From Lactarius indigo (taxonomy: Eukaryota > Basidiomycota > Agaricomycetes > Russulales > Russulaceae): a DNA stretch of 64,000 nt. The notes under the pieces are model-generated. The model saw only the letters and a program-made list of their open reading frames with translations. It was not told the origin of the DNA and made no database searches. The stretch spans positions 36,440 to 100,439 of the forward strand of contig JAFKAC010000164.1 in the NCBI GenBank assembly GCA_025766275.1, read 5' to 3'. Both the position numbers and the translations under genes were made by a program. Below are positions 12,770 to 45,608 of this stretch, piece after piece. Each line of letters starts with the position of its first letter. Positions within the stretch are counted from its first letter, which is position 1.

Positions 12770-12776
12770 AGGATTT

Positions 12777-12861
12777 GAGCCCATGACGCAAATCCTTGCG
12801 ATAGACTCGGTAAAGCCCATGTGCAATTGTGCCATGTCAGTCGGCAAAGCCCATGTGGGCC
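12777..12861 (+). repeat. Left terminal inverted repeat of the KDZ element
   Basis: It matches the reverse complement of 42615-42700 in several blocks, in order: ATGACGCAAAT, then a GTAAA-CCCATGTGCAA block, then CGG, then a CCCA-GTGGGCC block. The first six bases differ between the two ends (GAGCCC versus CACATA). Confidence 0.82.
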
Positions 12862-15300
12862 CATTGTTAATATAATGCGCATATATTTGTATGGGCCCAT
12901 CAGGCTTGTCTGCAAACAGTCTCGTGTGGGCCCACATTATCTGTACCGCTGGTAGGATAGCTGCCGAACGAATCGCTTGCATGGGCCCACAATGCACCTA
13001 TGACATTTGTCCCGATGAGATTGTAATTGGCCCATGCTGCCAAGGTGCGCATGCTGCCGATGAGCTTGCATTGGCCCATTCTTTGCATAAGTGAATTCTG
13101 CCGAACAGCTTGTATTGGCCCATTCTGCCCATGGGTGAATTCTGCCGAACAGTTTGTATTGGCCCACACTGCCAATGTGTACATGCTACCAATGGGTTTG
13201 TATTGGCCCATGCTGCCGATGTGTACATGCTGCCGATGGGTTTGTAGTGGCCCATGGTGCTCATGTATTTTCTGCTGACAAGCTCGTATTGGCCCATTCT
13301 CCCCATGGGTGAATTCTGCCGAATAGCTTGTATTGGCCCCTGGCGCCGATGTGTGTATTCTGTCGATGAGCTTGTATTGGCCCGCCGTACTCATGTACGT
13401 ATTCTGCCGACGAGCTTGTATTGGCCCATTCTTCCCATAGGTGAATTCTGCCGAACAGCTTGTATTGGCCCACGCTGCCAATGTGTACATGCTGCCGATG
13501 GGTTTGTATTGGCCCATGGTGCTCATGTATGTATTCTGCTGACAAGCTCGTATTGGCCTATTCTTCCCATGGGTGAATTCTGCTGAATAGCTTGTATTGG
13601 CCCATGGCGCCGATGTGTGTATTCTGTTGATGAGCTTGTATTGGCCCGCTGTACTCATGTATGTATTCTGCTGACAAGCTTGTATTGGCCCATTCTTCCC
13701 ATGGGTGAATTCTGCCGAACAGCTTGTATTGGTCCACGCTGCCGATGTGTACATGCTGCCGATGGGTTTGTATTGGCCCACGGTGCTCATGTATGTATTC
13801 TGCTGACAAGCTCATATTGGCCCATTCTGCACATAGGTGAATTCTGCCAAACAGCTTGTATTGGCCCACGCTGCCAATGTGTACATGCTGCCGATGGGTT
13901 TGTATTGGCCCATGGTGCTCATGTATGTATTCTGCTGACAAGCTTGTATTGGCCTATTCTTCCCATAGGTGAATTCTGCCGAACAGCTTGTATTGGCCCA
14001 TGGCGCTGATGTGTGTATTCTGTCGATGAACTTATATTGGCCCGCTGTAATCATGTACATATTCTGCCGATGAGCTTGTATTGGCCCATTCTCCCCATGG
14101 GTGAATTCTGCTGAACAGCTTGTATTGGCCCACGCTGCCAATGTGTACATGCTGCCAATGGGCTTGTATTGGCCCATTCTGCCCATGGGTGAATTCTGCC
14201 GAACAGTTTGTATTGGCCCACGCTGCCAATGTGTACATGCTGCCGATGGGCTTGTATTGGCCCATTCTGCCCATGGGTGAATTCTGCCAAACAGTTTGTA
14301 TTGGCCCACACTGCCAATGTGTACATGCTACCGATGGGTTTGTATTGGCCCACGCTGCCAATGTGTACATGCTGCCGATGGGTTTGTATTGGCCCATGGT
14401 GCTCATGTATGTATTCTGCTGACAAGCTTGTATTGGCCTATTCTCCCCATAGGTGAATTCTGCCGAACAGCTTGTATTGGCCCATGGCACCGATGTGTGT
14501 ATTCTGTCGATGAGCTTGTATTGGCCCACTGTACTCATGTATGTATTCTGCCAATGAGCTTGTATTGGCCCATTCTGCACATAGGTGAATTCTGCCGAAC
14601 AGCTTGTATTGGCCCACACTGCCAATGTGTACATGCTGCCGATGGGCTTGTATTGGCCCACTGTGCTCATGTGTGTATTCTGCTGAACAGCTTGTATTGG
14701 CCCATTCTTCCCATGGGTGAATTCTGCTAAACAGCTTGTATTGGCCCACGCTGCCGACGTGTACATGCTGCCGATGGGTTTGTATTGGCCCATGGTGCTC
14801 ATGTGTGTATTCTGCTGACAAGCTCGTATTGGCCTATTCTTCCCATAGGTGAATTCTGCCGAACAGCTTGTATTGGCCCATGGCACCGATGTGTGTATTC
14901 TGTCGATGAGCTTGTATTGGCCCACTGTACTCATATACATATTCTGCTGACGAGCTTGTATTGGCCCATGGCGTTTGTGTGTTTATGGCTTATATTGGCC
15001 CATGGCGCCGAAGTGTACTTGCTGCCGATGAGCTTGTAATGACCCACGGTAGAAGTGTGTGTATTCTGCCGAATAGCTTGTATTGGCCCATGGCGTCAAG
15101 GTATGTATCCTGCCGATGAGCTTGTACTGGCCCATTCTGCCAATGTGTGCATCCTGCCGATGTGCTTGTATTGGCCTGCAGTTTCTTCTTCCAATGAAGT
15201 TGGCTCACAGTGTTCATATCTGTACTCTTCCGACAAGCATGTATTGACCTGCAATGCCCATGCATACATCCTGCCGATGAGCCTGTATTGGTATGAGGAG
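12862..15300 (-). repeat. 44-bp subterminal repeat array, left
   Basis: About 55 units with a 44-bp period, measured from successive TGTATTGGCCCA motifs at 13111, 13155 and 13199. The core read on the plus strand is TGCCGATGGGTTTGTATTGG followed by CCCA. Units alternate between a few subtypes, and higher-order blocks of 3-6 units repeat. The core is the reverse complement of the right-array core (TGGGCC-AT...CATCGGCA). Long open frames through it are a by-product of 3 x 44 = 132. Variation is concentrated at CpG (GCCGA, GCTGA, GCCAA). Confidence 0.92.
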
Positions 15301-15305
15301 TGTAG

Positions 15306-16972
15306 CTATGGCATGAGATCATAGTTCTCCCCAAAATATGTAGTATTCAGGCTCTTCCCTCTCTCATGGAGACCCACAATTTGCTGCCGAAGTGACTCAA
15401 GGACCTTCTCATGGCTATCGCATCTGGATTTCAGATCCTTAATTGTTTTCTCTTGCCAGTCACATCTGACCTTTAGACTCTGGACCTCCCGTTCGAGCTG
15501 TTTAACTATATTATTGTTATCTTCGCCCTCAGCTGCTGATCAATGTGGTGAGCATAGAACCAATGGAAACTAGACCCAATGCACCTGGCGATGCCTCCTC
15601 ATTGGTTCCCTCCATTGGTTTATTGAGAGGTTGAGCTTCGACCTCCCGGTTGTTGTCAAGGTCCTCTTCTGGGTGTAGAGGCTTGCCCTTCCTTGAGCTT
15701 GTCTTCATATCCTGTTTCCCCTTACCTTTGATATTTGGCCTAGCTGCATTTGGATTATTATTTCCTGCATGCCTCCTAGTCTTGTATGTAGTGCTGATAG
15801 CTGCTTCACCAATATCATCGGCAACACTCCTTTTTGCTGCCGATCTGGTAACAATTTCTTTAGCTGCCGGTAAATGTGATGAGCATAGAACCAATGGAAG
15901 CTAGACCTAATGCACCTGGCGATGCCTCCTCATTGGTTCCCTCCATTGGTTTATTGAGAGGTTGAGCTTCATCCTCCCAGTTGTTGTCAGGGTCCTCTTC
16001 TGGGTGTAGAGGCTTGCCCTTTCTTGAGCTTGTCCTCTTATCCCGTTCACCCTTACCTTTGATATTTGGCCTAGCTGCACTCGGATTATTAACTCCTGCA
16101 CGCCTCCTAGTCTTGTATGTAGTGCTGATAGCTGCTTCACCAGTGTCATCGGCAGCACTCCTTTTTGCTGCCGATCTGGTAACAATTTCTTTGGCAATTT
16201 TATTCCTCAACACATCTGCATGACAAAATTCAGGACTCACTGCGAACACCACTACCAGACGCATATGAATCCTTCTTCCTCCTGGGAATAGGGGCTCTTG
16301 GATTGCCTATCTCTGCCGAGGGCTCTTGAGGTTCAGATGCCATAGGTTCTAGACCAGAAGCTGCCACTGAGGTAGTCATTATGTTTCCACCTGCTGAGTT
16401 TTCTTGATGCTCAGGTGCTATAGGAGCTGGACTGGAAGCTGCCGATGGCATATTTATCATCATGCCGCCTACTGACGCCAAACTGTCCATGCATTCTTGA
16501 CAAGAAGCTGCTGATGTCAGTCGACAGACATGAATGTCAGAGAGAGGGTCCACACCATTTTGGCCTGGTAAATGTATATTCAGTGGTGGGAGATCCGTTG
16601 GTGAAGTATAATAGTTGCTCATCAAAATCCTTGGATCCTTCACTGAGACTGAACTTATTTTCACGGAGGTTCCACCCTCTCTGATCACTTCCATGAGGCT
16701 TAACAACAGTGGGTGAATGCGGGGAGGTACAGAGCCTCTTCTATTGGCACCGAAATAATAGTCCACTGAAGTCTTCTGCATAGACCTCAGCTCAGCTTAT
16801 AGAAGTGGATTGTAGGAAGACTAGAATACCAAGTGCGTTCTGAATTTCTTCCTCCACACCTTTTCATCTCTGGGTATGCATGCATGATAGGCTTCTAGTT
16901 CCTTCTCGAGCATAGCTGCATAGTGGTGAAGAGTTTGTTTGTCCTGGGTTAGACTGAGATTGGAAGTTGACA
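15306..16972 (-). CDS. Unrecognised multi-exon KDZ cargo gene with duplicated exon and C-terminal coiled coil
   Basis: I do not recognise the family. The model starts at the ATG at 16972 (MSTSNLSLTQDKQTLHHYAA). A short intron follows the THL codons, then a long exon from about 16790 to 16240 encoding a Ser/Ala/Pro-rich region. Two near-identical exons follow (about 16190-15926 and 15873-15588), each reading KEIVTRSAAKRS...STTYKTRR...EEASPA and each ending at a GTGCAT donor with the same phase. The last exon, to the TAG at 15306, encodes a clear coiled coil (VKQLEREVQSLKVRC...). The exon pair is a tandem duplication that keeps the frame. One junction near 16215 needs an intron of only about 25 bp or is a lesion. 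Function unknown; the coiled coil suggests oligomerisation. Confidence 0.55.
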
Positions 16973-16989
16973 TGGTCACAGAGGAAGGG

Positions 16990-17610
16990 TGGTGTCAATG
17001 GTCTTATGGATCAAAGGCAAGAGGTGTCGGGAGTAGATATAGGAGGAAACAGTAGGAGCGTGGCCTGGGTATGTCCATCTATAATTATCAACTATGCAGA
17101 TAGATATATTGTGAAACATCCTATTAGGGGATTGTAGTTTCATCGGCAGTGTGTGTGGGTGTACTATATGGGCCAGGCAAGCGCTTCACTTGCCGGCATA
17201 TTGTTGGGGCTGCCGCAAGTTTGTTGGGAGCTCACACATGGATTCCATTGACCCACACAGGCACGTTTCAGAAGATGTTTCAGGAAAGATTATTGGGTGT
17301 TATGCGTGCTGCTTGCGTGGGCTTAATTTGTTCAGCCAGCAGTCAAAACACAAACATATGGCTGGCCTATGCCCGTGTCTAACCCGGCAGCTCTTGTATC
17401 CAGCTCGGCAGCTCATGTGTCTATCCTGGCAGCTCTCATGTCTAACCCGGCAGAGTTCTCTTGCTTTTGGCCTGTTCCAACTAATTAGAAGGGGATATAG
17501 ATTGTTGCCACCCCATGCAACTTGTTTCAGATTCATAGATCCGCATGTGTACATAAGTGCTTATGACGTCATACTGTGAGGGACATCTGCTGATATCCGA
17601 TCAACAATCT
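16990..17610. other. Intergenic stretch inside the KDZ element
   Basis: No gene that I can support lies between the divergent cargo genes. It carries several CTGCCG/CGGCAG words, including a short local series CGGCAGCTC near 17385-17455. Confidence 0.5.
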
Positions 17611-17617
17611 ATCAACC

Positions 17618-18130
17618 ATGCAGGGGAAGTCCTCAGAGATGAAACAAGGTGTCTATGAGTCAGAGGAGAACAGCTTCAAGGAGGCGGTGTGTGTATCAAA
17701 ACTAATGCTTTACTAGAACACTGAGCCGATGCCTATAGATGCGATCTGCATTCTGGAATGGGGTCAAACTCCTCAATGGAATGGAGTCTGATGTGGGTCA
17801 ACACCAGCAAGGAATGGTGGGACCCTCCGGCCCAACAGCAGATGCCAAAGGTTTCAGCGAGGTCCCGAAAAGTGTGACACTCTTACAACCTGTGATTGGA
17901 AAGCTCATTGACAAGGTAACTCAAGTGTCATCTGATTGACATCAGCTAAAACAATCCAGGATCCTCCAAAGGGTGTCTCTCCGTGATGGCTTTCAATTGC
18001 CAGAGATCGAGCTAACCTCCTGAAAGATAAGCAATCAGAGAAGATCGAACTATTGGAGGAACTTCTGCGTGATTTGGACAATGAGATGGTTATGGCAGAC
18101 GCCTTCATTGGGGAGGATCGGCAGCTGTAA
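17618..18130 (+). pseudogene. Small unrecognised KDZ cargo gene, interrupted
   Basis: The plus-strand coding trace starts at ATG 17618 (MQGKSSEMKQGVYESEENSF), has a GTGTGT donor near 17690, and reads on through QHQQGMVGPSGPTADAKG... to a GTAACT...CAG intron (17916-17959). The last exon runs LLKDKQSEKIELLEELLRDL to the TAA at 18128-18130. A TGA at 17984-17986 interrupts it; CGA in that place would keep an Arg codon. The middle exon boundary is uncertain. The C-terminus is a predicted amphipathic helix. It is transcribed divergently from the gene starting at 16972 and converges on the one ending at 18165. Function unknown. Confidence 0.4.
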
Positions 18131-18164
18131 TCATATTCTGTGATGTGTAGAACTACAGTAATCA

Positions 18165-18856
18165 TCAACCAGAGTTTTCATTCTCCAAACGAATAGCCTC
18201 TGCCTCAAAACTGCGATAAGTATCATCGAACATGTGATAAATGGAATCGCGGCAGCTCTCGATATTCTTGGACAGCTGCTGAGCTTGTTTGAACCCCTCT
18301 GTTACCCTAGTGCGAAGACTTGAGCTAGCTTCCTGCTGCAGTTCCAGTTACTTTGAGGACTTGTAAATGAAGCAGGGTGCATACCATCTCTAGAGAACGC
18401 AACAACTCTGCTACTAACTCATCGCGGACATCAAATGGTTCTTTCATAGTCACCCCTTCTCCAATTTTCCACCACTCCGTAAGTTTAAATCGTGGAATGG
18501 CTAATGCCTCAATCTTGCATTTCAGCCTCTGGTCCGCATCATGTGCTGCATAGGATGCCGGGTTCCTGATGTCCGAAAAATGGTGAAAGGCAATCCTGAC
18601 TGCCTCTGGCACATGAGGGGGGCTGCCGCTAGACGATAAAAGGCCAGTGACCCATACGGCAGCAAGCTAAATCCAAATTCTGATCAGAATGTGTTCCACT
18701 TGTTTTAGATGGAAAATTAATGCTTGCCACTTCATTGTGTAAGCTGGTGATATACTTTTCATCTTTATCGGCAGAGTTGAGCAAGATAGAGGATATTCTC
18801 TCGCCAATGCAGGTGAGCACAGCATCTAATATAGAGGTGCCTGTTTCAGCTGACAT
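18165..18856 (-). CDS. Unrecognised three-exon KDZ cargo gene
   Basis: ATG at 18856 (MSAETGTSILDAVLTCIGER). Intron 1 has a GTATGG donor near 18650 and ends GTGCCAG, joining ...LACC to QAVRIAFHHFSDIRNPASYA. The middle exon is rich in charged helices (FKLTEWWKIGEGVTMKEPFD). A second intron with a GTATGC donor ends GCAG, and the last exon reads EASSSLRTRVTEGFKQAQQL...SFEAEAIRLENENSG to the TGA at 18165-18167. All joins keep the frame, giving about 190 residues, mostly helical, with no motif I know. No lesion seen. It lies 3' of the KDZ transposase on the same strand. Confidence 0.55.
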
Positions 18857-18889
18857 AGTATGTAGTGTGTAACGTGAATGGAGTGTGAT

Positions 18890-19343
18890 ATTGCCTTTGG
18901 AAGCTGCCTATGAGTCCTAATAATCTAAGGTAGGGTTACGCTGCCAAATCATACACGTGATCCTGGGACCATGCTCGGCAGCTCTCCCGACAACTTTGGA
19001 CCAGCGCAATGGGTTCTATGGGCCAATGGGTGACCATAGACAGAGACTATAGGCCCATATGAGGTGTTGGCTCGGCAGCTCAACCCATCGGCCTACACTT
19101 GGCAGCTCTCCTAACAACTTTGGGTCAACACGATGGGTTCTGTGGGCCCATGTGAGGATGTTGTTTGCCAGTTCCCTGCCAGCTATTGGCCAATACAACG
19201 TCATCAGCAGCGATTCCACTGTCTACATGGCTTCCCTTTTAGTAGATAGAAACAAGCCCAACTTGCCATTAGATGCTGCCAATATTTTAACCCCCAATGA
19301 CTACCAACGACTAGTTGAGATTACTGTATGTATTTGAATAATT
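18890..19343. other. 3' flank of KDZ transposase with a ~60-bp direct repeat
   Basis: Two copies of a block reading CGGCAGCTCTCC-ACAACTTTG... then ATGGGTTCT-TGGGCC lie near 18974-19030 and 19090-19150. They resemble degenerate 44-bp array units (TGGGCC plus CGGCAG). No coding sequence is supported. Confidence 0.6.
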
Positions 19344-19387
19344 TTATCTACTCGTTTTTGGCTGTAGTAGGACCTTGGCAAACTCAG

Positions 19388-20004
19388 TGATGAACAGACA
19401 CATAGGAACTATACTCACAGTGGGACAAAGTACTGTGGTGAGATATAGAGGGTGACTGAGAAGCAGCACAGGAGGTGTCAAGCAAGTAAAGCAAGATGAT
19501 AGTCTGGCACACAGCAGTGAGAGAACTGATAATAGTATTACAGTGGAGAGAACATACCTGGCACACAGCAGTGAGAGAACTGATGTGGACCAGGAGCGTA
19601 CAAGCACTACTACTTATACTGTACAGAGGTGTGACACTAGTACAAGAGTGGTAACGTAGAGTCACAGAATACAAGGAGCGTTGTTCTACATACAGGACAA
19701 AAGGAGTGTATGAAAAGAGAACAAGGCGACTAGAACAAAGAGAGTCCAGACAAAGATGATATCATAATGACATCACAATAAAGATAGGAACTAAAGGAGA
19801 ACAAAGGACTGAGTACAATGAAGCGTCTGGAGTGTTCTACATGATGTCATGGTACATGATGTCATACATGACGCAATGATCAGCGCTAGATTGTACAGAT
19901 CAAATGTAAGTAATCTACAAGTCCAATTAATCTAATCTAAAGCAGTCCATGCTGCAAGTCCGGTCCATACGAGCCGCTAAGTGCGCAAGGGTCACTTATC
20001 AACA
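19388..20004 (-). repeat. 3' LTR of the Copia element
   Basis: 617 bp. On the sense strand it starts TGTTGATAAGTGACC and ends GTCTGTTCATCA. Nearly identical to 25117-25733. Confidence 0.97.
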
Positions 20005-20023
20005 TCTCCCCGTGATCTACAAT

Positions 20024-23000
20024 CTAAGTACACACAAGTCCCATGTCATCGTTGTGCTTCTGCAGCAGGACACGCGGTAGTGACTTTGTGAAGCCATCCG
20101 CAACCATATCTACAGTAGGAGTTCTAATGAGGGTGATGGTCCCCTTTTCGATGTACTCCCGAATGACATGATGCCGTATGGCAATGTGCTTAGACCGTCT
20201 CCCAGTGACAGGGTTCAAGGCCAAGTCAATGGCACCCTTATTGTCACCATGAAGTGGGATGGGGTCGTCGACCTCGTACCTGAGTTCCATGAGGAAGCTC
20301 TGATACCATGCAGCCTGGTTAACCGCGTCGGTCATGGCCATGTATTCCGCTTCCGTTGTGTTTTGGGCAACAGTCTTTTGCTTGCGCGAAGACCAGCTTA
20401 TTGCACCGTTAGCTAGTAAGAACACATAACCAGAGGTGGAGTGGCGGTCATCAGTCTGATCAGCCAGACTGGAGTCAGTGTAGCCATGAAGGCCATCGCC
20501 ATTTGCGCCATCATAGACAATACGCATATCCATAGTTCCCACTAGGTAGGACAGGACATACTGCGCAAGTCGCAGATGTTGTGGTGAGGGATTCGCTGCG
20601 TACTGCGCCAAACGTGACACAGCGAAAGAGATATCTGGCCTAGTGCCAATCTGCACATAAAGCAGACTCCCAATAAGAGATTGGTAGTGAGAGATATCTG
20701 GGGCAGTTGCCTGCGACGTATATTTAACCAGGTGCTCGTCAGCACCAGCGGGCAAGGGTGTGTTGTGTGGTGTGGCATCAGACATGCCAAAGCGTTCAAG
20801 GACATCCTTGATGTAGCCAGACTGATCTATTTCGATGCGTCTGAGGGAGCGGTCACGCACAATGCGCATACCAAGATAAGACTCTATCTCCCCGAGATCC
20901 GTCATCTCATAGCGTTCAGACAAGTCTGACTTAAGACGCTTGATTCCACTCAACGAGGGACCCAGTATAGTGATGTCATCAACGTAGACAATAACGAAGA
21001 GTGGATCATACCCCTCTCGTTGAGGCATCACATATATGCCAGCATCAGCAAATGTCCGCTTAAAGCTGAGTGCAGTGAGCACTCCATGGAATTGCAAGTT
21101 CCATGCGTGGGAGGCCTGTTTGAGACCATAGATCGCCTTAACCAGGCGACACACCTTCGTCTCAGAGCCAGTGACAGTGAAACCTTGTGGTTGCTCCATG
21201 TAAATCTCCTCATCAAGCACACCATTGAGAAAAGCAGACTTAACATCCATCTGATGGATGTGCCAGTCCTCCAGCGCGGCCAATGCCAGAAGTAATCGTA
21301 GCGACTCAAATCGTGCGACGGGAGAGAAGGTTTCATCAAAATCTACGCCAGGGATCTGCATGAATCCCTTAGCCACCAAGCGAGCTCTGTAGCGGCCATC
21401 CGCTTTGAGCTTAAAGACCCATTTGGATTTTACTGCCTTACGGTTAGGCGGGAGATCCACTAACTCCCAAGTCCCATTTTTTGCTAGGGCGTCCATTTCA
21501 TACTGACACGCCTTAGTCCACTCATCTGCAGCTGTAGACCGCATGGCCTCTGCATAAGATGCAGGGTCTCGGCCTACAAAGGCAGCAGCCAATAACTCCA
21601 CATACCCCAGATGCCTGCCGCGCCATGCCGCATTGTCCGCATTGAAGTAACGCGGATTAGGCACAGGGACACGAGCAGTGCACCTTGGTGCATTGTCCAT
21701 TTCGCGCAACAGCTGACTACGCTGTGCACGATCCTCAAATCCCCCAGGCATTTCTGGTGAGGGAGGAGGGACATGGCGCATAATGCGCGTTGCACTAGGA
21801 CGCAGCGGGGGTGAAGTGGGAGTGGTCTGCTCACGTTTAGGTGCGGTGGGCAGAGCTGGCAGAGCAGGTGGTGGAGTGGTGGGGCATGGTTGGACTTGTG
21901 GGGGGTCTAGGAGCTTTTCAACATCCTCCTCCTCACTACTACTGGAGTGTGCAGGGGAGGGGGCTCGCATTGGTGGTAACGCCAGCAGGTGAGGCACGGC
22001 AGTCACTGTTGTGCTAGGCACGACTGGTGGTGAAGGTGTGGGGTGTGTCTCAACACCCTGAAGGGACGGAAAGCTACTCTCGTCAAATGTCACATCCCTG
22101 GACACTCGAACGGAGCGGGTTGAGCGGTCCCAGAGCTTATAGCCCTTAGATTCGGGCTCAAACCCGATAAGCGTGACCTCAATGGCCTTCGCATCTAATT
22201 TGCGAGGCTTATCAGCGGGTACGTGCATGTACCCCTTGCATCCGAAGACGCGAAGATGTGAGACATCGGGCACTTTGCCAGAGTGCCAGAGCTCATAGGG
22301 AGTGCACCACTTAAGCCCATGGACTGGAGAGCGATTATAGATGTGCACAGCTGTGCACACTGCATGCTCCCAGAAGCCTTTAGACATGCCAGCTGTGTGG
22401 AGCATGGACATTGCCTTATCCATAATGGTGCGGTTAAACCGCTCGGCTTTTCCGTTGGACTGTGGTGAGCCCGGCATCGTGAGGTGATGCTCTATCCCTT
22501 TCTGCTTAAGAATGTCCTGCGTGACACTCGACATGTATTCACCACCGCGGTCAGAGTGCAGAGCGTGCAGTTTATGGCCAGACTGGGTTTCACCCCAAGC
22601 CAAATACATCTGCAGCGACTTAGCAAACTGGTCCTTCGACTTAAGGAAGTGGACCACAGTGAACTTAGTGTGGTCGTCTATGAAGGTGGCTGTATACGTC
22701 GAGCCTTGCAGGGACTGAGTTTGCATAGGACCGGCGAGGTCACTGTGCACAATCTCAAATTGACGAGTTGTCCTCTTGGTGGAGGACACAGAAAAAGGTT
22801 GGCGAGTGGATTTTCCCATCTCGCACCCACGGCAGACAGTGTGAGCGGTGGTAGAGCTGTCTATGTCCATGCCAGTAGTGGCAGAGGGACCATGCGCCTT
22901 CAGTGCCGCAGAGGAGATGTGTCCCATGCGTTGATGCCAGATATCAAGTGTGGCAGCACTTGATTTTGTGTGGGCGTTGAGGCCGACGCTGGCTGCGTCC

Positions 23001-24334: not shown

Positions 24335-25116
24335 TGGGATGATTTATCTATCGCCGAGGAGCAGTCAGCGACAGTGCTTCATAGTTTGCAAGACAAAGAT
24401 AGAGGGGGTATACCACTCCTGTCTGTGATTCTGTAAGGCCAGAACGCTAACGCGTCCTGCCTCCTGATAGTATGCCAGTGATACAAGGGCTAGGCCCAGG
24501 TTGGAGAGTCCCTTTGCCATACCATGAGCTAGCTGCCAGCCAGGATGTGTCTAAGACACAGCTCAAATGGTTTGCGTCAGGGGGAAGGTGAAGGGATTGC
24601 TTTCAGAGCCCAAGGCTGTCTACCTCAGCCTCCTCGGCCTGTTGGTTGCCTCATCGCCACAAGTGGCTTTACTGAATCCTTTCCCATTGCCGCTACAAGG
24701 CAGGTATCTGGTTGCAGAACACCATAATGGTGAACACCCCCCAGAGCCTGAACCAGGTTTTACACTCCCATGGTGAGGAGATCCTGCACCCAGTGTGGAG
24801 CACCAGAGACAGCTGGTGCTAAGCTCCACAATACACAGCCCAGTGGGCCATGCACGCCTGGATATTTTGAAGTTAAGGGGCTACCAGACCCAGTCTCCTT
24901 GTGCATAGCGCAGGGGCTAGGAAAACAGTAGGGGTGAAAGTAGGACTACTGGGCAGTACATGTACAGGAGGTTCCTCAGCAGAGACAAGTGGCGCCCCAC
25001 TGCTCTCTGCCTTGGGCAAGGCTGGTAAGGCCCCAGACAGACCTTAGCCTGGTGTGTCCTCCTAGGAAGACAGTGACCAGCCAAGTGGAGTGGCTAGGGC
25101 ACCAGGGCCCATAACC
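24335..25116 (-). other. Copia untranslated leader
   Basis: The region between the 5' LTR and the Gag-Pol start. Just inside the LTR the sense strand reads GGTTATGGGCCCTGG, which may contain the primer-binding site; I could not assign it to a tRNA. Confidence 0.6.
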
Positions 25117-25733
25117 TGATGAACAGACACATAGGAACTATACTCACAGTGGGACAAAGTACTGTGGTGAGATATAGAGGGTGACTGAGAAGCAGCACAG
25201 GAGGTGTCAAGCAAGTAAAGCAAGATGATAGTCTGGCACACAGCAGTGAGAGAACTGATAATAGTATTACAGTGGAGAGAACATACCTGGCACACAGCAG
25301 TGAGAGAACTGATGTGGACCAGGAGCGTACAAGCACTACTACTTATACTGTACAGAGGTGTGACACTAGTACAAGAGTGGTAACGTAGAGTCACAGAATA
25401 CAAGGAGCGTTGTTCTACATACAGGACAAAAGGAGTGTATGAAAAGAGAACAAGGCGACTAGAACAAAGAGAGTCCAGACAAAGATGATATCATAATGAC
25501 ATCACAATAAAGATAGGAACTAAAGGAGAACAAAGGACTGAGTACAATGAAGCGTCTGGAGTGTTCTACATGATGTCATGGTACATGATGTCATACATGA
25601 CGCAATGATCAGCGCTAGATTGTACAGATCAAATGTAAGTAATCTACAAGTCCAATTAATCTAATCTAAAGCAGTCCATGCTGCAAGTCTGGTTCGTACG
25701 AGCCGCTAAGTGCGCAAGGGTCACTTATCAACA
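25117..25733 (-). repeat. 5' LTR of the Copia element
   Basis: 617 bp, ending in CTTATCAACA on the plus strand and followed by the CTCAG duplication. Confidence 0.97.
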
Positions 25734-32869: not shown

Positions 32870-33039
32870 ATTCTAACCGTTAAGGAACTTGGTGCAGAAG
32901 ACTAGCTGCCGATCCACCCGAATTCCGTAGTTTTTCTAGCTGCCGATAAACAAACCCACGCTGCCAAGCATGTGATATCGTCACTTAAACTGCCGCAGAT
33001 TGTCAGACCTTCAGTCTGTCCCTCCTGTTAATCTTCCCC
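32870..33039. promoter_or_regulatory. Shared divergent promoter of TET/JBP and 33040 gene
   Basis: The 170-bp gap between two start codons pointing apart contains two exact CTGCCGA (near 32905 and 32938) and two near matches (GCTGCCAAGC, ACTGCCGCAG). That is far denser than chance. A regulatory function is inferred. Confidence 0.45.
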
Positions 33040-35179: not shown

Positions 35180-35814
35180 GCAAATTCAGTAAGTGATAGC
35201 TTCCTCATTGACTCTAGAAGGTGAATGTGTCCAATAGGAGCAGCGGCATGTCTGCCAGGACCAGAGTGGGTCGCTAGAAGGAGGAGGGGCAAGGGGCATA
35301 CACCGCTGCGGATGATTAGTATCTCCCTCACATCCCTTTTCTGGGTTCTCACTCGTACCAAGCGTCACTCAGAGTGTAACGTAAATATCTATCTATACAT
35401 GTGTTGTGCAAATTTTCAGCACCATTAAATGCCTTGACAATGATATAGTGTTGCGGCAGCTCAAGCCAACATTTTTGCTGCCTTGGGAAATAAGATGTTG
35501 GAGATCTGAAAATATTTGGGGAGGTAGATATTCTCAAATGCTGAGGAATCCTCCGCCAACTCTAAGCGATAAAATCGGACCGTTTGTGAGTTATTTGACC
35601 AGTTCTGAACAGCTGCCGAAACATCACAACCAACTCACAATCACGCAGGGCGAAACAAGACAGCAAGTGGAGATTGTATTTGATACAGACATGGTACAGT
35701 AGGGCAGTGAACTAGCTAGATGTGAGACAAGTATGTAAAGAGATACCGAGGCAGAGGGAAATAGTAAACAAAACAAAAACGATGCCAAAAAATGCGTAAA
35801 GTAAGAAAAAGGTC
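35180..35814. other. Convergent intergenic region
   Basis: Lies between the 3' ends of the 33040 and 37677 genes. A 98-codon open frame at 35406-35702 has no recognisable motif and I do not call it. One CTGCCGA occurs near 35612. Confidence 0.5.
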
Positions 35815-37677
35815 TTACAATCCGCCCTTCCAGTTCTCATCTTGCGTGCGTATCCATTCTTCAATCGCAGCTACCCTTCTCTCCAAGGCCACCATGCTGC
35901 TGCTGCTGGGAGACGGCACTTGCGACTCCTGGGCGGCAGAGCTTTGCTGTTGCGAGGAGACCGAGGGTGGTGGGTTCGGCACCAAGACATACGGCACGAG
36001 TTTCTTCCTCTTCAATGACACGTGCCGATGGAGAGCGGGGGCTATGGAGGGGGAGTGGTCGTCAATGGGAACAGGAAAGTCGGCAGCAGGGGTAGGGGGA
36101 ATGGGAGTGGCGGTGGCAGGGGGAATGGCGGTAGCAGTGGTAGGAGGAACTGCAGCAGCAGGGGAAGGGGCGGCGGCGGCAGAGATGATGGGAATTGAAG
36201 TGGGAGTAGGGACAGAGGGCTCGGCAGCTGCGTCTACAGCAGGGAACAGCTCTGCAGAGGGTGGGACGGGCGACTCAGCTGCAGACGGTGAAACCGAAGC
36301 TGCTGAGCGAGAATGGCCATGAGATGACCCGCTGTCCAGCTTCATCCTCCCAACCATCCTTGAGGCAAACGCTACCGAGTCTGAACCCACCCTGACCCCA
36401 CGCCTCGGCTGCTTCCCCTTGAGCTGCTCAAGGCGGAACTTGAAGACCTGCTTGGCCGTCAGTATCCGCCGATCTGCCTTGCCTGTCTTCGCATTTATGG
36501 GCATCAGACTGCATTGCTGCTTCTTCTCCTTGCAGCGAATGCAAGGCCCTGTCGGCCTTGTCTGGCAGTCGACCCCTGCACGGGTGCATCGAGAGCACTA
36601 TTTACATTTCCTTCAGCTGCGAATAATGAAAAGATAACGAATACGCACCTTGAACTTATACCTCTCATACTCGTTTTCTCCCTCACCCTCTTCGCCTCCC
36701 TTGCCGTCGTCATTGTTGTCGTCATTGTCATCGTTGTCGTCGTTGTCATCGTCGATCTCGTCCACCTCATCGTCCTCCTCCTCCTCCTCCTCCTCCTCGA
36801 TCTTGTCCTCTTCTTCATAGCCATCGTCACTGGAGCTGTCGTCGTTGCTGTTGCTGTTGTCGTCATCGTCCTCACTCTCAAACTCGTCCTCGTCATTGAT
36901 TGCAGGCCTACGTTGCTGCCGTGAGGGCCCTGCATGGTGCTTCTTGGTCTTGTCGCCTGAAGGCAAAGGCCGCTTATGCTTCCTCGAATCGACCACGGCA
37001 GCAGCTTTGGCAGCCCCTTCGCACTGCCTTCGGTTGCGGGTGGCCCTTAGCAACTGTTGGAGGAAGTCAGAATGATCAGAGGAATAGAGATATAATTACT
37101 CACCTTCTGCGACCCATCCACCTGCATTGCCGCATAGTCGGCAGGTGGATCTGGCAGGATGAGCTTCACCCTCGGCAGGTGATGTGGGACCGTCTTTGGT
37201 GGTGGTCCCACATTTCGAGACTCGGCAACTGTGGGGAGACATTGAGAAAGCAAATGAGACAGTTTTTAATGACTCACCAAGGGTTTCCCACCAGCGACCC
37301 TCACTCGGCAACAAGTCCGAGATGTCCTGGGGGAACTTGGCCCCAGGTTGGTAATACTTATGCCTCTTAAGGCCGGGGTTTGTCCTGGTGATCTCTGAAA
37401 GATCACCATCAGCAGTCTAATACGATGTAGAGCGCCGCTAGTGTGGGATGCAGTGCTGGCGCCTCCCCCGAATTGTCCTTCTTGACCTGCCAAAAAGACT
37501 TTTGTTGCCTTGGCCTAACTCAAATGGGGATGAGATCAAATGGAAACCTAAACAAGGACTTACCTTCTCCTTCTCAAGGTGGCGTTTCCATTCTGCCCTG
37601 TCAGTTACGTCTCGGACTGAGACATAAGCAGCAACGGTGGCTTCGATCACTGATGCAATGGAAAGAAGGGATGTCAT
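35815..37677 (-). pseudogene. Zn(II)2Cys6 protein with acidic region, KDZ cargo, one frame break
   Basis: Putative transcription factor. ATG at 37677 (MTSLLSIASVIEATVAAYVS). GT-AG introns at 37487-37563, 37229-37277, 37054-37103 and 36598-36648. Order: helical N-terminus; a KYYQPGAKFPQDISDLLPSE segment; basic RRQCEG...KHKRP; a ~60-residue Asp/Glu tract (36670-36890). Directly after the last intron comes CSRCTRAGVDC...CIRCKEKKQQC, spacing CX2CX6CX7CX2CX6C, the Zn2Cys6 signature. The tail is Pro/Ala/Ser-rich and ends in a short helix (VALERRVAAIEEWIRTQDEN). The cluster is internal rather than N-terminal, which is unusual. One +1 near 37416 (IVL then TADGDLSEITRT) breaks the frame. Zn2Cys6 proteins bind CGG-containing sites, and the element-wide motif TCGGCAG contains CGG. 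Confidence 0.7.
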
Positions 37678-37918
37678 GGTGTTGAAGTAAAAAGAACAAT
37701 GTGTTCAGCGGTGTCAATTGCCACGTCGGTTGAGGTTGTGCTAGCGACGGGTGGTGCCGCTGCCGAGCTGCCGAAATATCCATTCACAACCTGACTCAGC
37801 AGAACATGGATTCTTCTTTGCATAATAAGTAATCGAGATACTGCCGACTCATTCGACTTATCGCTACATCATCAGACCACTCCACGCAGACCATTTCCAC
37901 TCAGAAAATTCTACTTTC
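37678..37918. promoter_or_regulatory. Divergent promoter with clustered CTGCCGA
   Basis: Between the Zn2Cys6 gene and the gene at 37919. It contains GCTGCCGAGCTGCCGAAAT (about 37759-37777), which is two abutting motifs, and ACTGCCGACTC near 37841. Role inferred. Confidence 0.45.
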
Positions 37919-39270
37919 ATGTCTCAATCTCGCTCTCCCCTTTCGATATTGGTCAGCACTCAACAGCTCAGGATCAGTGAAGATCCACTTCTATCTGCCG
38001 AAGGTCAAGACGATTATGGCATGGGTGGGGAGTCATCCCCAGAAAGTAAACACAGCTTTGGGATGGATGGATCGCCGTCTCCGGTAGCTCAGGATGACTT
38101 TGGAATGGGCGGGTCTCCATCCCCAGTAGCTCAGGACGACTTTGGAATGGGTGGATCTCCATCCCCTACAGTTCCAGCTGACTTTGGGATGGATTCGCCT
38201 CCACCTACTCTGCCAACTCGGTCCATCGGCAGCCTCAAGGCAGCACGTGGTAAGTGTCGTTTTCACTGATTTCCATTCACCCCTAACTCTGCATGTACAG
38301 TTTGGGAATGGGGCAAGCATGCCCCACCTTCCAGTGCCTCTGAGGTGCCAAAAGGCCATGGCGTCACCAACTCAGAGGCTCCTCAGGAGGTGCGAGATGG
38401 GGGCAGTTTTGGTATGGATGGGCCACCCTCACCAACGGCTCAAGATGACTTTGGGATGGACTTGGCCCTACCTGCCGAGGTTAGAGAGTGTGTAGGAAAC
38501 CCTTCGGCAGCGTGTGGTGAGTACCAGATGGACTTGGCCTTACCTGCCGAGGTTGGAGAGAGTGTAGGAATCTCGTCGGCAGCACACAGTGAGTACCATT
38601 TTGACTGATTATAAAATATGTCTTACTCTGCATATACAGACCATGAGGTCGAAGATCTGGAGAGTTTTGGTATGGATGGGCCACCCTTGCCAATGGCTCA
38701 GGACAACTTTGGGATGGACTCGCCAGTCTCGCCTGGGGCCCATGCTCAGGGGATAACCTGCGCACCATCGCGACAGGATGGGATGCCAAATGAAGATGTT
38801 AGGGAGGACTTGGCCCTACCTACCGAGGCTGGAGAGCGCGTTGGAATCCATTCGGTAGCACACAGTGAGTACCAGTTTGACTGATTACGAATCATACCTT
38901 GCTCACCGTATACAGTCAGAACTTTCGGTGGGAATGACCTATCTCCCTCCAACTCACAGGTGCCGGTAGGCCATGGTGATGAAAGTGTGGAGGTGCTTCA
39001 TGTGCAAGTACAGCATCCTCCCGAGCAGGTACTGGTACGCTGTATATTCCACTACCGATTTTTGCAACATTGACCATCTATTCTGCTTTACAACAGCAAG
39101 AAGAGTTTGATCTCAGCACCAGGGTCGCCATCTTACGTGCTGAAGGATCAAGGAATCATCGAATCCATGCCCAGGTATGGAATATCTATCAGCAGGAGAA
39201 GGAAATGAGTGAGGTGATAGATGATATAATCGAGGAGTTGGACAATACTGATGTGCAGAACCTTGTGTAG
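37919..39270 (+). CDS. Unrecognised KDZ cargo protein with FGMDGxPSPxAQDD repeats
   Basis: Five exons with GT-AG introns 38250-38300, 38589-38639, 38865-38915 and 39029-39096; all joins keep the frame, about 375 residues. It begins MSQSRSPLSILVSTQQLRIS. A degenerate 12-14 residue repeat (FGMGGSPSPVAQDD and variants) occurs about eight times across the first three exons. The C-terminal exon is helical (STRVAILRAEGSRNHRIHAQ...EVIDDIIEELDNTD). Introns 2 and 3 are near copies (GTGAGTACCATTTTGACTGA and GTGAGTACCAGTTTGACTGA), so exon-plus-intron units were duplicated. A decayed copy of the same donor lies in the coding sequence near 38517. No lesion seen. Probably disordered; function unknown. Confidence 0.6.
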
Positions 39271-39429
39271 TATATCGAGTGTTATATAGTCCAAATGTTA
39301 AAGCTTCGGATTGGAAAACATATGAGTGCGCTCAAAAGAGCTTGCCGGCCAAGAACGCAGGGAATGACAGTCTGCCGATGGACAACAATGAGTATCACTG
39401 GGATCATTCAGGCGGTACATGTCAAGACA
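39271..39429. other. Spacer between the last cargo gene and the right array
   Basis: No feature seen apart from one CTGCCGATGG near 39370, which marks the start of array-like sequence. Confidence 0.4.
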
Positions 39430-42400
39430 AATATGCCAGTGCTTCCCATAGAATTCTGGGCCCATTCAGGACCATCGGCAGCACTCTGGAGGGAAGGGCT
39501 CAGGCCATTAAAGGCAATCTATGGTGGCCCTTAAAAGGATTCTTAGCCCATTCAAAGCTATCAGCAACACATTTCAGGACTGACCATGGGTGGCTGGGCC
39601 TATTGAAGGTTGGCTGCGCATCACAGGAACATGCCTGGGCCCAGCCAACATAGTCGGCAGTCTTGTTCCGAAGTGATATACTACCGATTAGATTGAATTG
39701 GCCCAGAATTGCTCTTAAGAAATGCTGCCGATGGTCTTAAATGGGCCCAATGTGGTTTGTCAGTGATGCTAAGCCCGGCGGTAGCACCCCTCATAAACAA
39801 CATGGGGTCCATTCAAGACCATCGGTGCTTTCCCTCATAACTTTTCATAAGCAACATTGAGTTGATTAGGGATGTCATCAAGGGGCAATGCTGGGCCCAT
39901 TTGAGCCCACCGGCAGCATGTCTCACAAGCAATGCTGGGCCCATTTAAGCCTGTTGGCAGTGTATCTCGCTAGTAATTTTGAGCCCATTCAAGGCAATCA
40001 GTAGTAACACTCAGGAATAACACTGGGCCCATTCAAGGCAATTGGTAGTATCACTGATGAACAACACTGGGCCCATTTGAGACCATCGGCAGCATTTATT
40101 AAGAGCAGTGCCGGGCCCATTCAAAGATTTCAGTAGTATCACTTGGGAAAACATTGGGGCCATTTGAGACCATCGGTACCATACCTTGATTGATACTGGG
40201 CCCATTCAATGCAATCGGCAATTTCGCCAAGTATCAATGCTGGGCCCATTTGAGGCCATTGGCAGCATTTATTAAGAGCAACGCTGGGCCCATTCAAAGC
40301 AATCGGTAGTGTCACTTAGGAAAACACCAGGCCCATTTGAGACCATCAGTACCATATCTTATGATTTGCACTGGGCCCATTCAATACAATTGTCAATTTC
40401 ACCAAGGATCAATTCTGGGCCCATTTGAGGCCATCGGCAGCATTTATTAAGAGCAACACTGGGCCCATTCAAGGAAATCGGGAATGTCACTCAGGAAATC
40501 ACTGGGCCCATTTGAGACCATCGGCAGCATATCTTATGATTGACACTAGGCCCATTCAATACAATCGTCAATTTCACCAAGGATCAATTCTGGGCCCATT
40601 TGAGGCCATCAGCAGCATTTATCAAGAGCAATGCTGGGCCCATTCAAAGCAATCGGTGAAATCGCCGAAGAACAACACTGGGCCCATTCAAAGCAATCGG
40701 TAGTGTCACTTAGGAAAACACCAGGCCCATTTGAGACCATCGGCAGCATATCTTATGATTGACACTGGGCCCATTCAATACAATCGTCAATTTCACCAAG
40801 GATCAATGCTGGGCCCATTTGAGGCCATCGGCAGCATTTATCGAGAGCAATGCTGGGCCTATTCAAAGCAATCAGTAGTGTCACTCAGGAAATCACTGGG
40901 CCCATTTGAGACCATCGGTACCATATCTTATGATTTGCACTGGGCCCATTCAATACAATTGCCAATTTCACCAAGGATCAATTCTGGGCCCATTTGAGGC
41001 CATCGGCAGCATTTATTAAGAGCAACGCTGGGCCCATTCAAGGAAATTGGGAATGTCACTCAGGAAATCACTGGGCCCATTTGAGACCATCGGCAGCATA
41101 TCTTATGATTGACACTAGGCCCATTCAATACAATCGTCAATTTCACCAAGGATCAATTCTGGGCCCATTTGAGGCCATCGGCAGCATTTATCGAGAGCAA
41201 CGCTGGGCCCATTCAAAGCAATCGGTGAAATCGCTGAAGAACAACACTGGGCCCATTCAAAGCAATCGGTAGTATCACTTAGGAAAACACCAGGCCCAGG
41301 AAAACACCAGGCCCATTTGAAACCATCAGCAGCATATCTTATGATTGACACTGGGCCCATTCAATACAATTGTCAATTTCACCAAGGATCAATTCTGGGC
41401 CCATTTGAGGCCATCGGCAGCATTTATCAAGAGCAATGCTGGGCCCATTCAAGGAAATCGGGAATGTCACTCAGGAAAACACTGGGCCCATTTGAGACCA
41501 TCGGCAGCATATCTTATGATTGACACTAGGCCCATTCAATACAATCGTCAATTTCACCAAGGATCAATGCTGGGCCCATTTGAGGCCATCGGCAGCATTT
41601 ATCGAGAGCAATGCTGGGCCTATTCAAAGCAATCAGTAGTGTCACTCAGGAAATCACTGGGCCCATTTGAGACCATCGGTACCATATCTTATGATTTGCA
41701 CTGGGCCCATTCAATACAATTGTCAATTTCACCAAGGATCAATTCTGGGCCCATTTGAGGCCATCGGCAGCATTTATTAAGAGCAACGCTGGGCCCATTC
41801 AAGGAAATCGGGAATGTCACTCAGGAAATCACTGGGCCCATTTGAGACCATCGGTACCATATCTTATGATTGACACTAGGCCCATTCAATACAATCGTCA
41901 ATTTCACCAAGGATCAATTCTGGGCCCATTTGAGGCCATCGGCAGCACTTATTAAGAGCAATGTTGGGCCCATTCAAAGCAATCAGTAGTGTCACCTAGG
42001 AAAACACTGGGCCCATTTGAGACCATCTGTACCATATCTTATGATTTGCACTGGGCCCATTCAGGGAAATCGGTAGCATCACTTAGGAGAACACCGGGCC
42101 CATTTGAGACCATTGGCAGCATCTATCAAGAGCAACGCTGGGCCCATTCAAGGAAATTGGTAGTGTCACTTAGGAAAATACCGGGCCCATTTGGGACCAT
42201 CGGCAGCATATCTTATGATTGGCACCAGGCCCATTCGATACAATTGTCAATTTCACCAAGGATCAATTCTGGGCCCATTTGAGCCCATCGGCAGCATGTC
42301 CTAGGAGCCATTATGGGCCCATTCAAGGCAATCGGTAGCATTTCAGGGGAATAATACTGGGCCCATTTGAGACTGTCAGCAGCGTGTCTCAGGGGCAGCA

Positions 42401-42560
42401 CTGGGCCTATTCAAGGAATTCGGCAGTGTCACTTAGGAATAACATTGGGCCCATTTGAGACTATCGGCAGCACCTGCAAAGTGTTTTCTGTGTAGTGGGC
42501 CCATCTCTTAATCATGGTAAGGTATCTCCAGCTGATGTCGCTGGCCCCATCTGAACAATT
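39430..42560 (+). repeat. 44-bp subterminal repeat array, right
   Basis: About 70 units with a 44-bp period (GCCCAT at 40331, 40375 and 40419). The core is TGGGCCCATTTGAGACCATC followed by GGCAGC, alternating with TGGGCCCATTCAA-GCAATCG types. A higher-order block of about 5-6 units recurs (for example from 40425 and 40994). In orientation it mirrors the left array and shares its core in reverse complement. CpG decay is visible (CATCGGCA, CATCAGCA, CATTGGCA). Confidence 0.92.
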
Positions 42561-42614
42561 CGGCAGTTCTATTTAATAGGCCCATTCGTGATTTACGTCT
42601 GCCTTTACTATGTA

Positions 42615-42700
42615 GGCCCACGTGGGTTTCACCGATGTATTAGGGTCATTTGCACATGGGGTTTTACGAATGTATCATTAATTATTTGCGTCATTATGTG
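42615..42700 (-). repeat. Right terminal inverted repeat of the KDZ element
   Basis: The reverse complement begins CACATAATGACGCAAAT and matches the left terminus in blocks. It is followed by the AGGATTT duplication at 42701. Confidence 0.82.
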
Positions 42701-45608
42701 AGGATTTATGGGGAAAAGAGGGTTTTTGGAGCACCTGAACCCATTGGCCTGGCTGAGGGCTTTAAATTGTAATTCTGTAATCATGACATGCTTTTGATCT
42801 CTTCAAATCCCAGTTTCGATCTGCACAAATTACCAAATGGCTGACATAAGAGCATTGGTGGACTCTGGAGCCACCAACAACTTCATAAACCCAAAGTTTG
42901 CTTCAAAAATGGGGATCAGGGTCCAACCCTTACCCCAGGCATGGAAGACATGGAATATAGACAATATGGAAAATAAAGCTGGGTCCATCACTCACTTCTT
43001 GGACCTAGATGCCTACGCCAAAGGATACCATAGGACTATGAGGTTCCTGGTCATGGACCTCAGAAATGAAGACATTTTCCTCAGCTACCCATGGTTGGCA
43101 ACATACCAACCTACCATCAATTGGTGAGATGCAGTAATACACAAGGAAGTGATGCCGGTCATCATCAGTACTCAGGACAGTCAAGACCAACAAATTGTCA
43201 TCACCTTGACCCTCACTGATGATGAAAAAGATAGGATAGTAGAAGAATTGGATGAAAAAGATGTACACATCTGTGCAACCACGTCCACTGAGTTGGCAAT
43301 TCAAGCACACAAAGGAGAAAAACAAGTCAAACTGCCAAAGGTATACCACACCTTTAAGAAGCTCTTCAGTGAGGAGGCCTCCCAACAATTTCCCCTGGCA
43401 TGACTGTGGGATCACACCATTGACTTCAAACCTGGAGCTCCTACTGCCATAGACTGCAAAATCTACCTGCTCACATAAGAAGAGGAGGGAAAACTCAAGG
43501 AGTTCCTAGACGAGAAACTTCAACAAGGGTACTTACACCCTTCCATTTCCCCATACACCTCATCTTTCTTCTTTGTTAAAAAGAAGGACAGAAAGCTACA
43601 TCCCATACAGGACTATCACGTTATCAATTCACACACTGTCCAAAACCAGTACCCACTCCCGCTTATTCAAGACCTTATTAATGACCTTAGTAATGCACAC
43701 ATCTACACTAAGCTCAACATTTGATGGGGGTATAACAACATTTGGATATGCAAAGGTGATCAAGAGAAGGCAGCATTCAAGACTAAGTTTGGGCTTTTTG
43801 AGCCTACAGTCATGTTCTTCAGCCTAACCAACTCACCTGCAACCTTTCAAACAATGATGAACCACATCTATCATGACACAATTGCAAAACACGAATGAGC
43901 GGGCACAGTTATAAGGGTGTACATGGATGATATAGGCATCGCCACTTGGGAGGGATATGACTCCAATGCTCACATCACAGCTGTTACGGATGTGCTTCAT
44001 GTCGCACAGGAGAATGACCTGTACTTCAAACTCAAGAAGTGCCTCTTCCACCAACCTCAGATGGATTGCCTGGGGGTAATCCTTGAAAAGGAGGTAACAT
44101 GCATGGACCTGGTAAAAGTTCATGGCATTAAAGACTGGCTGACACCAACAAAAGTCAGGGATGTACACTCCTTTTTAGGCTTCTGCAACTTTTACTGCTT
44201 ATTCATCCAAGGTTTCACAACCCATGCACGACTGCTAAATCAACTCACAAGGAAGGATGCTGAGTGGAAGTGGACAGAGGACGAGGAAAATGTGTTCTGA
44301 ACTCTCAAATGCCTTGTTACAGAAGAACCAGTGCTGGCTCACCCCCACCTACAAGACCAATTTGAACTAGAGGTAGATGCATCAGGATATGCAGTAGGCA
44401 CTGTTCTCTTGCAAAAGAAAAGTGATGGGCGCAAGCACCCCATAGGATATTATTCAGCCATGCTGAGCAAGGCAGAACAAAACTATGACATCTATGACTT
44501 GGAACTACTAGCCATTGTCAAGGCTCTTTGGCATCGGAGGCCCTTACTTGCAGGGTCACCCCACAAAATCAAAATATTCTCAGACCATCTCAACCTCCAA
44601 TACTGGAAGACCCCACAAAAGATTAGTAGAAGAGTCACCAGAGAGGTGCTGGAGTTGATGGAATATGACTTTGAGATCCACCACATAAAGGGGAAGAACA
44701 ATGGAAGAGTGGATGCCCTCTCCAGACGACCAGACTACAATCAAGGAGAGGAGGACAACCAAGGTGTAGTCGTCCTCCCCCCCAAAGTATTTGTACGAGC
44801 AGCTGATGTTGCACACACACTGGAAATACACCCGATGCTGCAACAACTGAGACGGTGACAAGATCCAAGCATTATAAAGCACTGGGTGGACACACATCAG
44901 CTAAAGAAAATAGAGGGCAAGTGGTATAAAGATGGATGCCTGGTAATTACTGGACCAACCTCAGCCTACCAAACAATTATCCACGATCATCACAACCCTC
45001 CGGTCCACAGCCATCCAGGTATCAGTCATACCTAACAAATCATAGAATGACACTACTGGTGGCCTCACCTCTGTTGAGACGTCTATGAGTATGTCACCAG
45101 CTGCACTGAATGCCAACGCAACAAAGTCAATACTAGACTGACTCATGCCCCTCTACAACCCATCACCCCACTAATGGACACTGCCCCATTTCATACCATA
45201 GCCCTGGACTTCATTACAAAGTTACCAATATCCCAATGCTATGATAGCATTCTAACTGTCACTGATCATGATTGCAGCAAGGCCTTGATATTTATTCCAT
45301 GCAATGAGGAAATCACTGCTGAAGAAACCACTATCCTGTATGTCAATCATGTGTTTAAACAATTCAGGTTGCCGCATAAAATCATTAGCAATTGTGACCC
45401 TTGTTTCACATCCAAATTCACAAAGGAGGTGTGTTGAATACTGGGGATCAAACAGAACATTTCCACCGCCTATCATCCACGCACTGATGGACAGTCAGAG
45501 CATACCAATCAATGGCTGGAGCAGTACTTACATTTCTGGGCTAATGAGCATCAAGATAACTGGGCAGCATATCTGCCAATAGCTGAATTCACTCACAACA
45601 ACTGGCTG
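42701..45608 (+). pseudogene. Gypsy-3 protease, reverse transcriptase, RNase H, integrase start
   Basis: This continues gypsy-3 after the KDZ element. Protease active site ALVDSGATNNFI near 42852, then LSYPWLATYQPTINW. The reverse transcriptase has QNQYPLPLIQDLINDLSNAH near 43635-43700 and the YMDD box (VYMDDIGIA) near 43918. RNase H: FELEVDASGYAVGTVLLQKK near 44350 and IKIFSDHLNLQYW near 44570. Integrase: a TECQRNK zinc-binding piece near 45105, DFITKLP, then SNCDPCFTSKF and DGQSEHTNQW near 45490, and EFTHNNWL at the break at 45608. Several stops (for example at 43125, 43478, 43722, 44298, 45030 and 45435) mean the protein is dead. The rest of the integrase resumes at about 52589. Confidence 0.9.

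Follow-up and report, generated by a model that had tools for sequence, protein, structure and literature searches.

A window of 64,000 nucleotides from Lactarius indigo (Russulales), an ectomycorrhizal mushroom, contains a large KDZ cut-and-paste DNA transposon, which by its features most likely belongs to the Kyakuja lineage. The window corresponds to C73:36440-100439 in the 90.3-Mb assembly. The exact ends of the transposon and its 7-bp target-site duplication are confirmed, and four genes are supported by homology or conservation, namely a gene of unknown function (gene A), a KDZ transposase, a TET/JBP dioxygenase and a gene encoding an acidic protein (gene D). In addition, the short word CTGCCGA (TCGGCAG on the other strand) is spread over the element, and inverted arrays of 44-bp units built on two words lie at its ends; neither feature was part of an earlier, sequence-only reading of the window. 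As a whole, these observations are probably best explained by a KDZ transposon in which CTGCCGA is a predicted mark of self, bound by a protein of the element.

A left-end probe matched at least 31 left ends with 93-100% identity, a lower bound, since 40 of 82 candidates were scored. Twenty-two of these begin exactly at 12777, six begin 1-4 bp earlier, and three (the window, C22 and C34) are one and the same locus. A right-end probe detected approximately 30 right ends, the majority of which stop at 42700. Flanks were read for 30 of the 31 left ends (C39 was left out) and for 24 of the right ends; once read, the flanks outside the six earlier-starting ends proved unrelated, and the borders proposed by the sequence-only reading, 12777 and 42700, are thereby upheld. 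Both ends lie on a single contig in 18 copies, at an end-to-end distance of 18.1-42.4 kb, and an exact 7-bp duplication is present outside both ends in 17 of them, with an 8-bp match in none of the 18. The exception, C239, may be a recombinant. C73 and C22 represent a single insertion, so the 17 duplicated copies sit at 16 different sites, which rules out segmental duplication in place of transposition. Three more duplications were recovered from halves broken between contigs (C61/C43, C251/C236 and C241b/C228), these pairs being chosen by the 7-bp match itself, with approximately 0.004 chance matches expected in 12 x 6 pairs. No clear target-site consensus was seen across 19 duplications. The duplications read most directly as cut-and-paste by the KDZ transposase, which would make staggered cuts of 7 bp at the tips. 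The regularity of the duplication, which the sequence-only reading had offered as a class-level trait, stands; its novelty does not, since 7-bp duplications and TET genes of Kyakuja were both published in December 2025 (PMC12730594), and neither the duplication nor the TET cargo is therefore new.

The termini, described previously as inverted over approximately 85 bp, are imperfectly inverted over approximately 110 bp (alignment score 77.5 versus 14.2 ± 7.1, maximum 33, in 300 shuffles). The pattern of the right tip has 29 genomic matches, every one a right end of the family represented in the window (family A). A more diverged subfamily B is present at 21 places with 79-84% identity to the TET probe, and a search for its right ends by the same tip pattern found none among the 29 matches.

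The empty gypsy-3 site anticipated by the sequence-only reading was sought and found on C242, where the same gypsy copy is near-identical, carries a single AGGATTT and lacks the transposon. Identity of C242 to the window reaches 98.9% along 1678 bp of the left flank; the right flank aligns in two stretches, one of 59 bp (100%) and one of 1318 bp (99.5%). It is still colinear approximately 7 kb to the left of the junction (window 5400-6000), in a segment with matches of approximately 100% on four contigs (C73, C22, C34 and C242). On the right side, window 55000-55600 matches C242 approximately 62 kb from the junction, not at the expected 12 kb; the C73-type and C242 loci may be alleles or segmental duplicates. 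That the gypsy-3 halves come from one element is seen also in C226 and in all nine other fetched gypsy loci, which continue straight across the site with 75-78% identity over the joined flanks. The gypsy copy on C242 bears a different insertion of approximately 6.9 kb, 52 bp further on (1727-8583 of the C242 stretch), the edges of which are rich in TGGCTCGGCTC-like words.

The 18.5-kb interior contains 66 copies of CTGCCGA, where 1.8 are expected and 200 shuffles yield 6 at most. When all 7-mers of the interior are counted without bias, the nested copia element set aside, TCGGCAG ranks first (66 versus an order-2 expectation of 2.4, z 37), and the top 8-mer is GCTGCCGA (43 versus 0.6 expected). 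Under an order-3 model, into which the 4-mers of the motif are already built, 11.8 are expected, with a maximum of 23 in 200; among 300 same-letter permutations containing CG, CTGCCGA is again first, with the next at 17. Sites occur in each kilobase of the core in either orientation, with a median spacing of 196 bp and a density of approximately 3.6 per kb. The baseline outside the element was drawn from nested inserts, gypsy loci, end flanks and window flanks. The nested copia holds no CTGCCGA in 6.3 kb and the other nested inserts hold 1 in 7.8, 2 in 9.8, 1 in 7.9 and 0 in 0.7 kb; there are 5 in 46 kb of gypsy loci (some of which overlap), 2 in 16.5 kb flanking 11 ends and 1 in 34 kb of window flanks. 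Within the compared regions, the dense short word is thus restricted to the transposon family, and it recurs in subfamily B (14 sites across 2.6 kb in the neighbourhood of genes A and D, and 16 across 5.8 kb of transposase and TET sequence) and at a third TET locus on C112 (4 in 2.5 kb).

The enrichment extends to the level of codons. The transposase open reading frames (ORFs), taken unspliced, give 11 counts (10 distinct sites, that at 28118 lying in two overlapping ORFs) against a mean of 1.05 and a maximum of 5 in 500 synonymous shuffles, and subfamily B coding sequence gives 10 against 1.37, with a maximum of 5. Codon usage as the source of the excess is ruled out by these shuffles in both subfamilies. 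Where families A and B were compared (77% identity), 11 of 21 A motif sites are identical, the rate being 26% for 7-mers in general and 19% for 338 CpG words matched by offset; in a filtered test, 9 of 18 motif sites are kept versus 63 of 314 words (one-sided p = 0.006), where flank identity predicts 2.7.

A neutral origin of the excess, whether by seeding of array fragments inside the element, a mutation bias of the region or a CpG context that escapes deamination, is unlikely. Such an origin would fit with the decay of motif CpGs in close copies, which is about as fast as that of others, and with the turnover of sites in genes A and D. It sits poorly with the far lower counts in codon shuffles, with the extra identity between subfamilies and with inserts of other elements that lie at the same places without the motif; sparing of motif CpGs was not seen. 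The interior sites have no common context beyond the 7-mer, which excludes an origin as fragments of the 44-bp terminal repeat.

At the two ends, the same two words, CTGCCGA and GGCCCA, recur in inverse orientation. Left units aligned on GGCCCA have CTGCcGA..aGcTTGTATTGGCCCA in common, and right units, reversed and aligned in the same way, have TgCCGATtGccTtaAATGGGCCCA. By GGCCCA counts, the number of units varies between copies, from 28 to 51 on the left (seven copies) and from 30 to 49 on the right (six copies). CTGCCGA is densest and oriented in these arrays, and in CACTA elements TNPA is known to bind subterminal repeats (PMC2613891). Both facts lend substance to the view that CTGCCGA is, as in Spm/En, a site only for the transposase or for a protein that assists it in transposition, with interior copies regulating transposition or transcription and bearing no relation to TET or methylation. 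This is a reasonable possibility, falling short of probable. Sites throughout the interior, in both orientations and also through synonymous codons, are unneeded for end recognition, and would act as decoys.

The favoured explanation, that of a self-mark, takes CTGCCGA as a predicted protein-binding site because of its density, its codon-level enrichment and its identity across subfamilies. A DNA-binding protein encoded by the element would recognise the word. The terminal arrays, in which CTGCCGA is paired with GGCCCA, may load the transposition complex, while interior sites would label the element as self. Such a label would most plausibly serve to concentrate on the element either an anti-silencing activity, with TET oxidising 5-methylcytosine, or an activator of transcription; recruitment of TET is the boldest step of this mechanism. 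The Zn2Cys6 pattern is C-x2-C-x6-C-x5-12-C-x2-C-x6-8-C, and proteins of this class bind CGG triplets. Gene D may, as a guess, be the best candidate binder, because it has Zn2Cys6-like spacing and TCGGCAG contains CGG, the triplet preferred by the class. The full proposal, in which a zinc-cluster protein binds a word kept element-wide, even by synonymous codons, and so directs 5-methylcytosine oxidation to the element itself, is tentative and possible rather than probable.

CpG-TpG exchanges are the mark of heavy CpG methylation. These exchanges account for 83-87% of substitutions between the window and four long copies, for 10 of 14 in C61 and for 42% in the more distant C11. Several observations weigh against a self-mark read by gene D and TET. 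The CpG observed/expected ratio in the element (0.39-0.70) overlaps those of the flanks (0.26 and 0.54), and hence no protection is visible. Motif CpGs are not less mutated in close copies (26 of 71 versus 259 of 614 variable, p = 0.45), and genes A and D have only three sites common to both subfamilies, out of 10 in family A and 14 in subfamily B. Gene D has no match in Pfam or PDB, its single-sequence fold model is poor, and the complete cysteine cluster is found in only one of six gene D homologue models. Moreover, an in-frame stop lies immediately ahead of the cluster, where an exon border must fall if gene D is intact. Finally, in the window copy the TET gene is shifted in frame and the transposase truncated, and to judge from its reading frames this copy is probably not autonomous.

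The identification of a KDZ transposon with a TET/JBP gene in the sequence-only reading agrees with domain matches to PF18758, PF18803 and PF12851. The KDZ transposase domain (PF18758; E 5e-31 and 8.6e-14, above cut-off) and the CxC2 domain (PF18803; E 6.5e-26) lie in overlapping ORFs at 27249-28811. ORF 25731-26855 has as its best match an L. indigo protein bearing PF18758, and is on that account the C-terminal part of the transposase. The transposase end is uninterrupted in C223a, C241a and C201a, from which it follows that the nested copia has cost the window copy its final 12 transposase codons. The TET protein matches CcTet (E 2.6e-16) and retains the HRD (HxD), Ser, Asp and downstream His residues; the Ser and Asp are those of the AG type at Gly/Ser331 and Asp337 (CcTET numbering, PMC12730594). 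Its frame has 146 codons in the window versus 180-181 in most family copies, and at the point of the frame shift a sister copy reads on without interruption, suggesting that the gene is probably dead in the window copy only. A third, more distant TET locus at C112:436940-437368 has approximately 60% identity by tblastx, and its Pfam TET score is the highest of the whole genome.

A Pfam scan of the gene A and gene D ORFs returned no family, and both genes are conserved in subfamily B, with the same four-gene order on C24. Gene A has 52% amino acid identity to its subfamily B counterpart over 175 columns, with a third-position excess in one aligned block (70 versus 42 and 41) and none in the other (28, 22, 28). 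Gene D is conserved in blocks of 48-90% with no clear third-position excess, and its cysteine spacing is found in the window, in all five fetched full copies and in subfamily B, and is absent from the flanks. A codon-position screen among close copies, which left out ORF 25731-26855, met few independent changes and brought no gain. The gene D region (35818-37095) is 97-98% identical to the window in nine other two-ended copies and 89-93% in eight, and the transposase (27742-28700) and TET (31568-32500) of the same copies, C11 aside, are 98-99% identical; this suggests fast change of the gene D module or its exchange between copies. Gene D-like matches at 86% are also present on C290, C261, C159, C213 and C258.

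Six of the 18 two-ended copies were read through (the window, C22, C241a, C201a, C11 and C223a) and the other 12 were assessed by ends and probes. By probe, gene A, the transposase and TET are each present in 17 of the 18 and gene D in all; 17 copies hold all four genes and C11 retains gene D only. The four genes lie on one strand of the element. Movement as one unit, as previously proposed, is therefore substantiated, but the count of about ten genes given with it is not, as four are supported, ORF 20024-24334 belongs to a nested copia element and the ORFs at 12900-14980 fall within tandem repeats. It is very improbable that the element is a cargo transposon moving some ten captured host genes as a unit. 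Two-ended copies are indeed large (18.1-42.4 kb), but none of 30 scanned element ORFs has a significant host-metabolism domain, the supported genes comprise the transposase, TET and two whose products have no assigned family, and readable differences between copies stem from nested long terminal repeat (LTR) elements or unidentified inserts. The coordinates of the features are collected in Table 1.

Table 1. Coordinates of the transposon and its component features, in window positions
Feature	Position	Strand	Basis
Whole transposon	12777..42700	none	Borders common to genomic copies, 7-bp duplications, empty site
Left target-site duplication, AGGATTT	12770..12776	none	Sequence and copy comparison
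Right target-site duplication, AGGATTT	42701..42707	none	Sequence and copy comparison
Left terminal repeat, imperfect, tip GAGCCCATGACGCAAAT	12777..12886	+	Alignment to reversed right end
Right terminal repeat, imperfect, reversed tip CACATAATGACGCAAAT	42591..42700	-	Alignment; genomic tip matches
Left array, ~49 units of 44 bp, CTGCCGA 28 on + and 0 on -, plus GGCCCA	13012..15176	+	
Right array, ~57 44-bp units bearing both words inverted; CTGCCGA 0 on + and 17 on -	39983..42472	-	
Interior, 66 CTGCCGA/TCGGCAG sites outside copia (35 on +, 31 on -)	15177..39982	none	
Gene A, unknown protein, main ORF 16233-16796	16145..16975	-	Conservation in subfamily B, probe
Nested copia LTR element, separate from the transposon; polyprotein encoded by ORF 20024-24334, LTRs at 19388-20004 and 25117-25733	19388..25733	-	
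KDZ transposase gene, multi-exon, with CxC2 cysteine cluster	25731..29538	-	PF18758, PF18803, probe
TET/JBP dioxygenase gene, domain exon 31568-32005, frame shifted here	31568..32872	-	PF12851, CcTet match, probe
Gene D, acidic protein, C-x2-C-x6-C-x7-C-x2-C-x6-C cluster at 36511-36597	35818..37474	-	Subfamily B blocks, Lactarius homologues, probe

The transposon is 29,924 bp long, or approximately 23.6 kb without the nested copia. The copia is a later insertion, with 617-bp LTRs that are 99.5% identical, TG..CA LTR ends and a 5-bp duplication, CTCAG, and it is missing from all three copies checked (C223a, C241a and C201a). The interior of C11 contains gypsy gag, reverse transcriptase and integrase domains. 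The assembly contains near-duplicate contigs, and the left ends on C238 and C14 have a common flank, ggtacgtctcatctt, which makes them one insertion on two contigs, like that on C73, C22 and C34. Right ends on C290, C261 and C56 have in common the outer flank cgattggaggatcta, with no left end found nearby, and a right-side piece seems to have been copied within a larger repeat. Tandem repeats of approximately 81 bp form inverted blocks in the left flank of the window (2119-4554); TCTCGGA-type words, strongly enriched in the combined flanks, may belong to these repeats.

The element resembles the TET-bearing Kyakuja of Agaricomycetes, which are reported from Russulales too, in its KDZ transposase, its AG-type TET with HxD, Ser/Gly and Asp, and its 7-bp duplications, Dileera and Zisupton having 8-bp duplications (PMC12730594). 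Two Laccaria Kyakuja families have CA..TG termini and no terminal inverted repeats (PMC12730594), whereas the L. indigo element has a left tip GAG (left end GA.., right end ..TG), a reversed right tip CAC and weak inverted repeats, imperfect over 110 bp. Neither the 44-bp arrays nor an element-wide motif is mentioned for Kyakuja in the available text of PMC12730594, and a literature search, largely of titles and abstracts, brought up no description of a comparable motif, whether from Kyakuja or from other TET transposons of fungi. The KDZ1-3 elements of Cryptococcus, for which mobility of the superfamily was shown, likewise encode a KDZ transposase, but are approximately 9-11 kb long with terminal inverted repeats of 139-241 bp, 4-8-bp duplications and CxC1 where the L. 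indigo element has CxC2, and no TET gene is mentioned for them in the text available (PMC12810828). The duplications in many copies also fix where this very large KDZ unit begins and ends.

Spm/En and other CACTA elements have many subterminal copies of a short word at both ends, together with a second DNA-binding protein, for which the L. indigo element offers a candidate (PMC2613891); they differ in transposase superfamily and duplication length, and the L. indigo word continues through the interior. The function of transposon-borne TET lacks experimental validation according to PMC12730594, where it is speculated that oxidation in Agaricomycotina is not target-specific. A dense family-specific word in coding and non-coding DNA provides a direct and cheap test of targeted self-protection, and the L. 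indigo motif is a template for seeking such tags in other TET-bearing elements. A further likeness is to the VANC/VANDAL anti-silencing system of Arabidopsis, in which a dense family-specific short word is also found in copy-variable tandem repeats and is recognised by an element-encoded protein (PMC5735166, PMC10398659); for the L. indigo element such recognition is a prediction. The VANDAL motifs are mainly non-coding, and binding and demethylation are proven there, whereas the L. indigo sites are also coding and the element itself has a TET gene, with a predicted role. If TET is indeed directed to the element through CTGCCGA, the L. indigo element would be a TET-based counterpart of plant VANC, and would answer whether transposon-borne TET acts selfishly, in cis.

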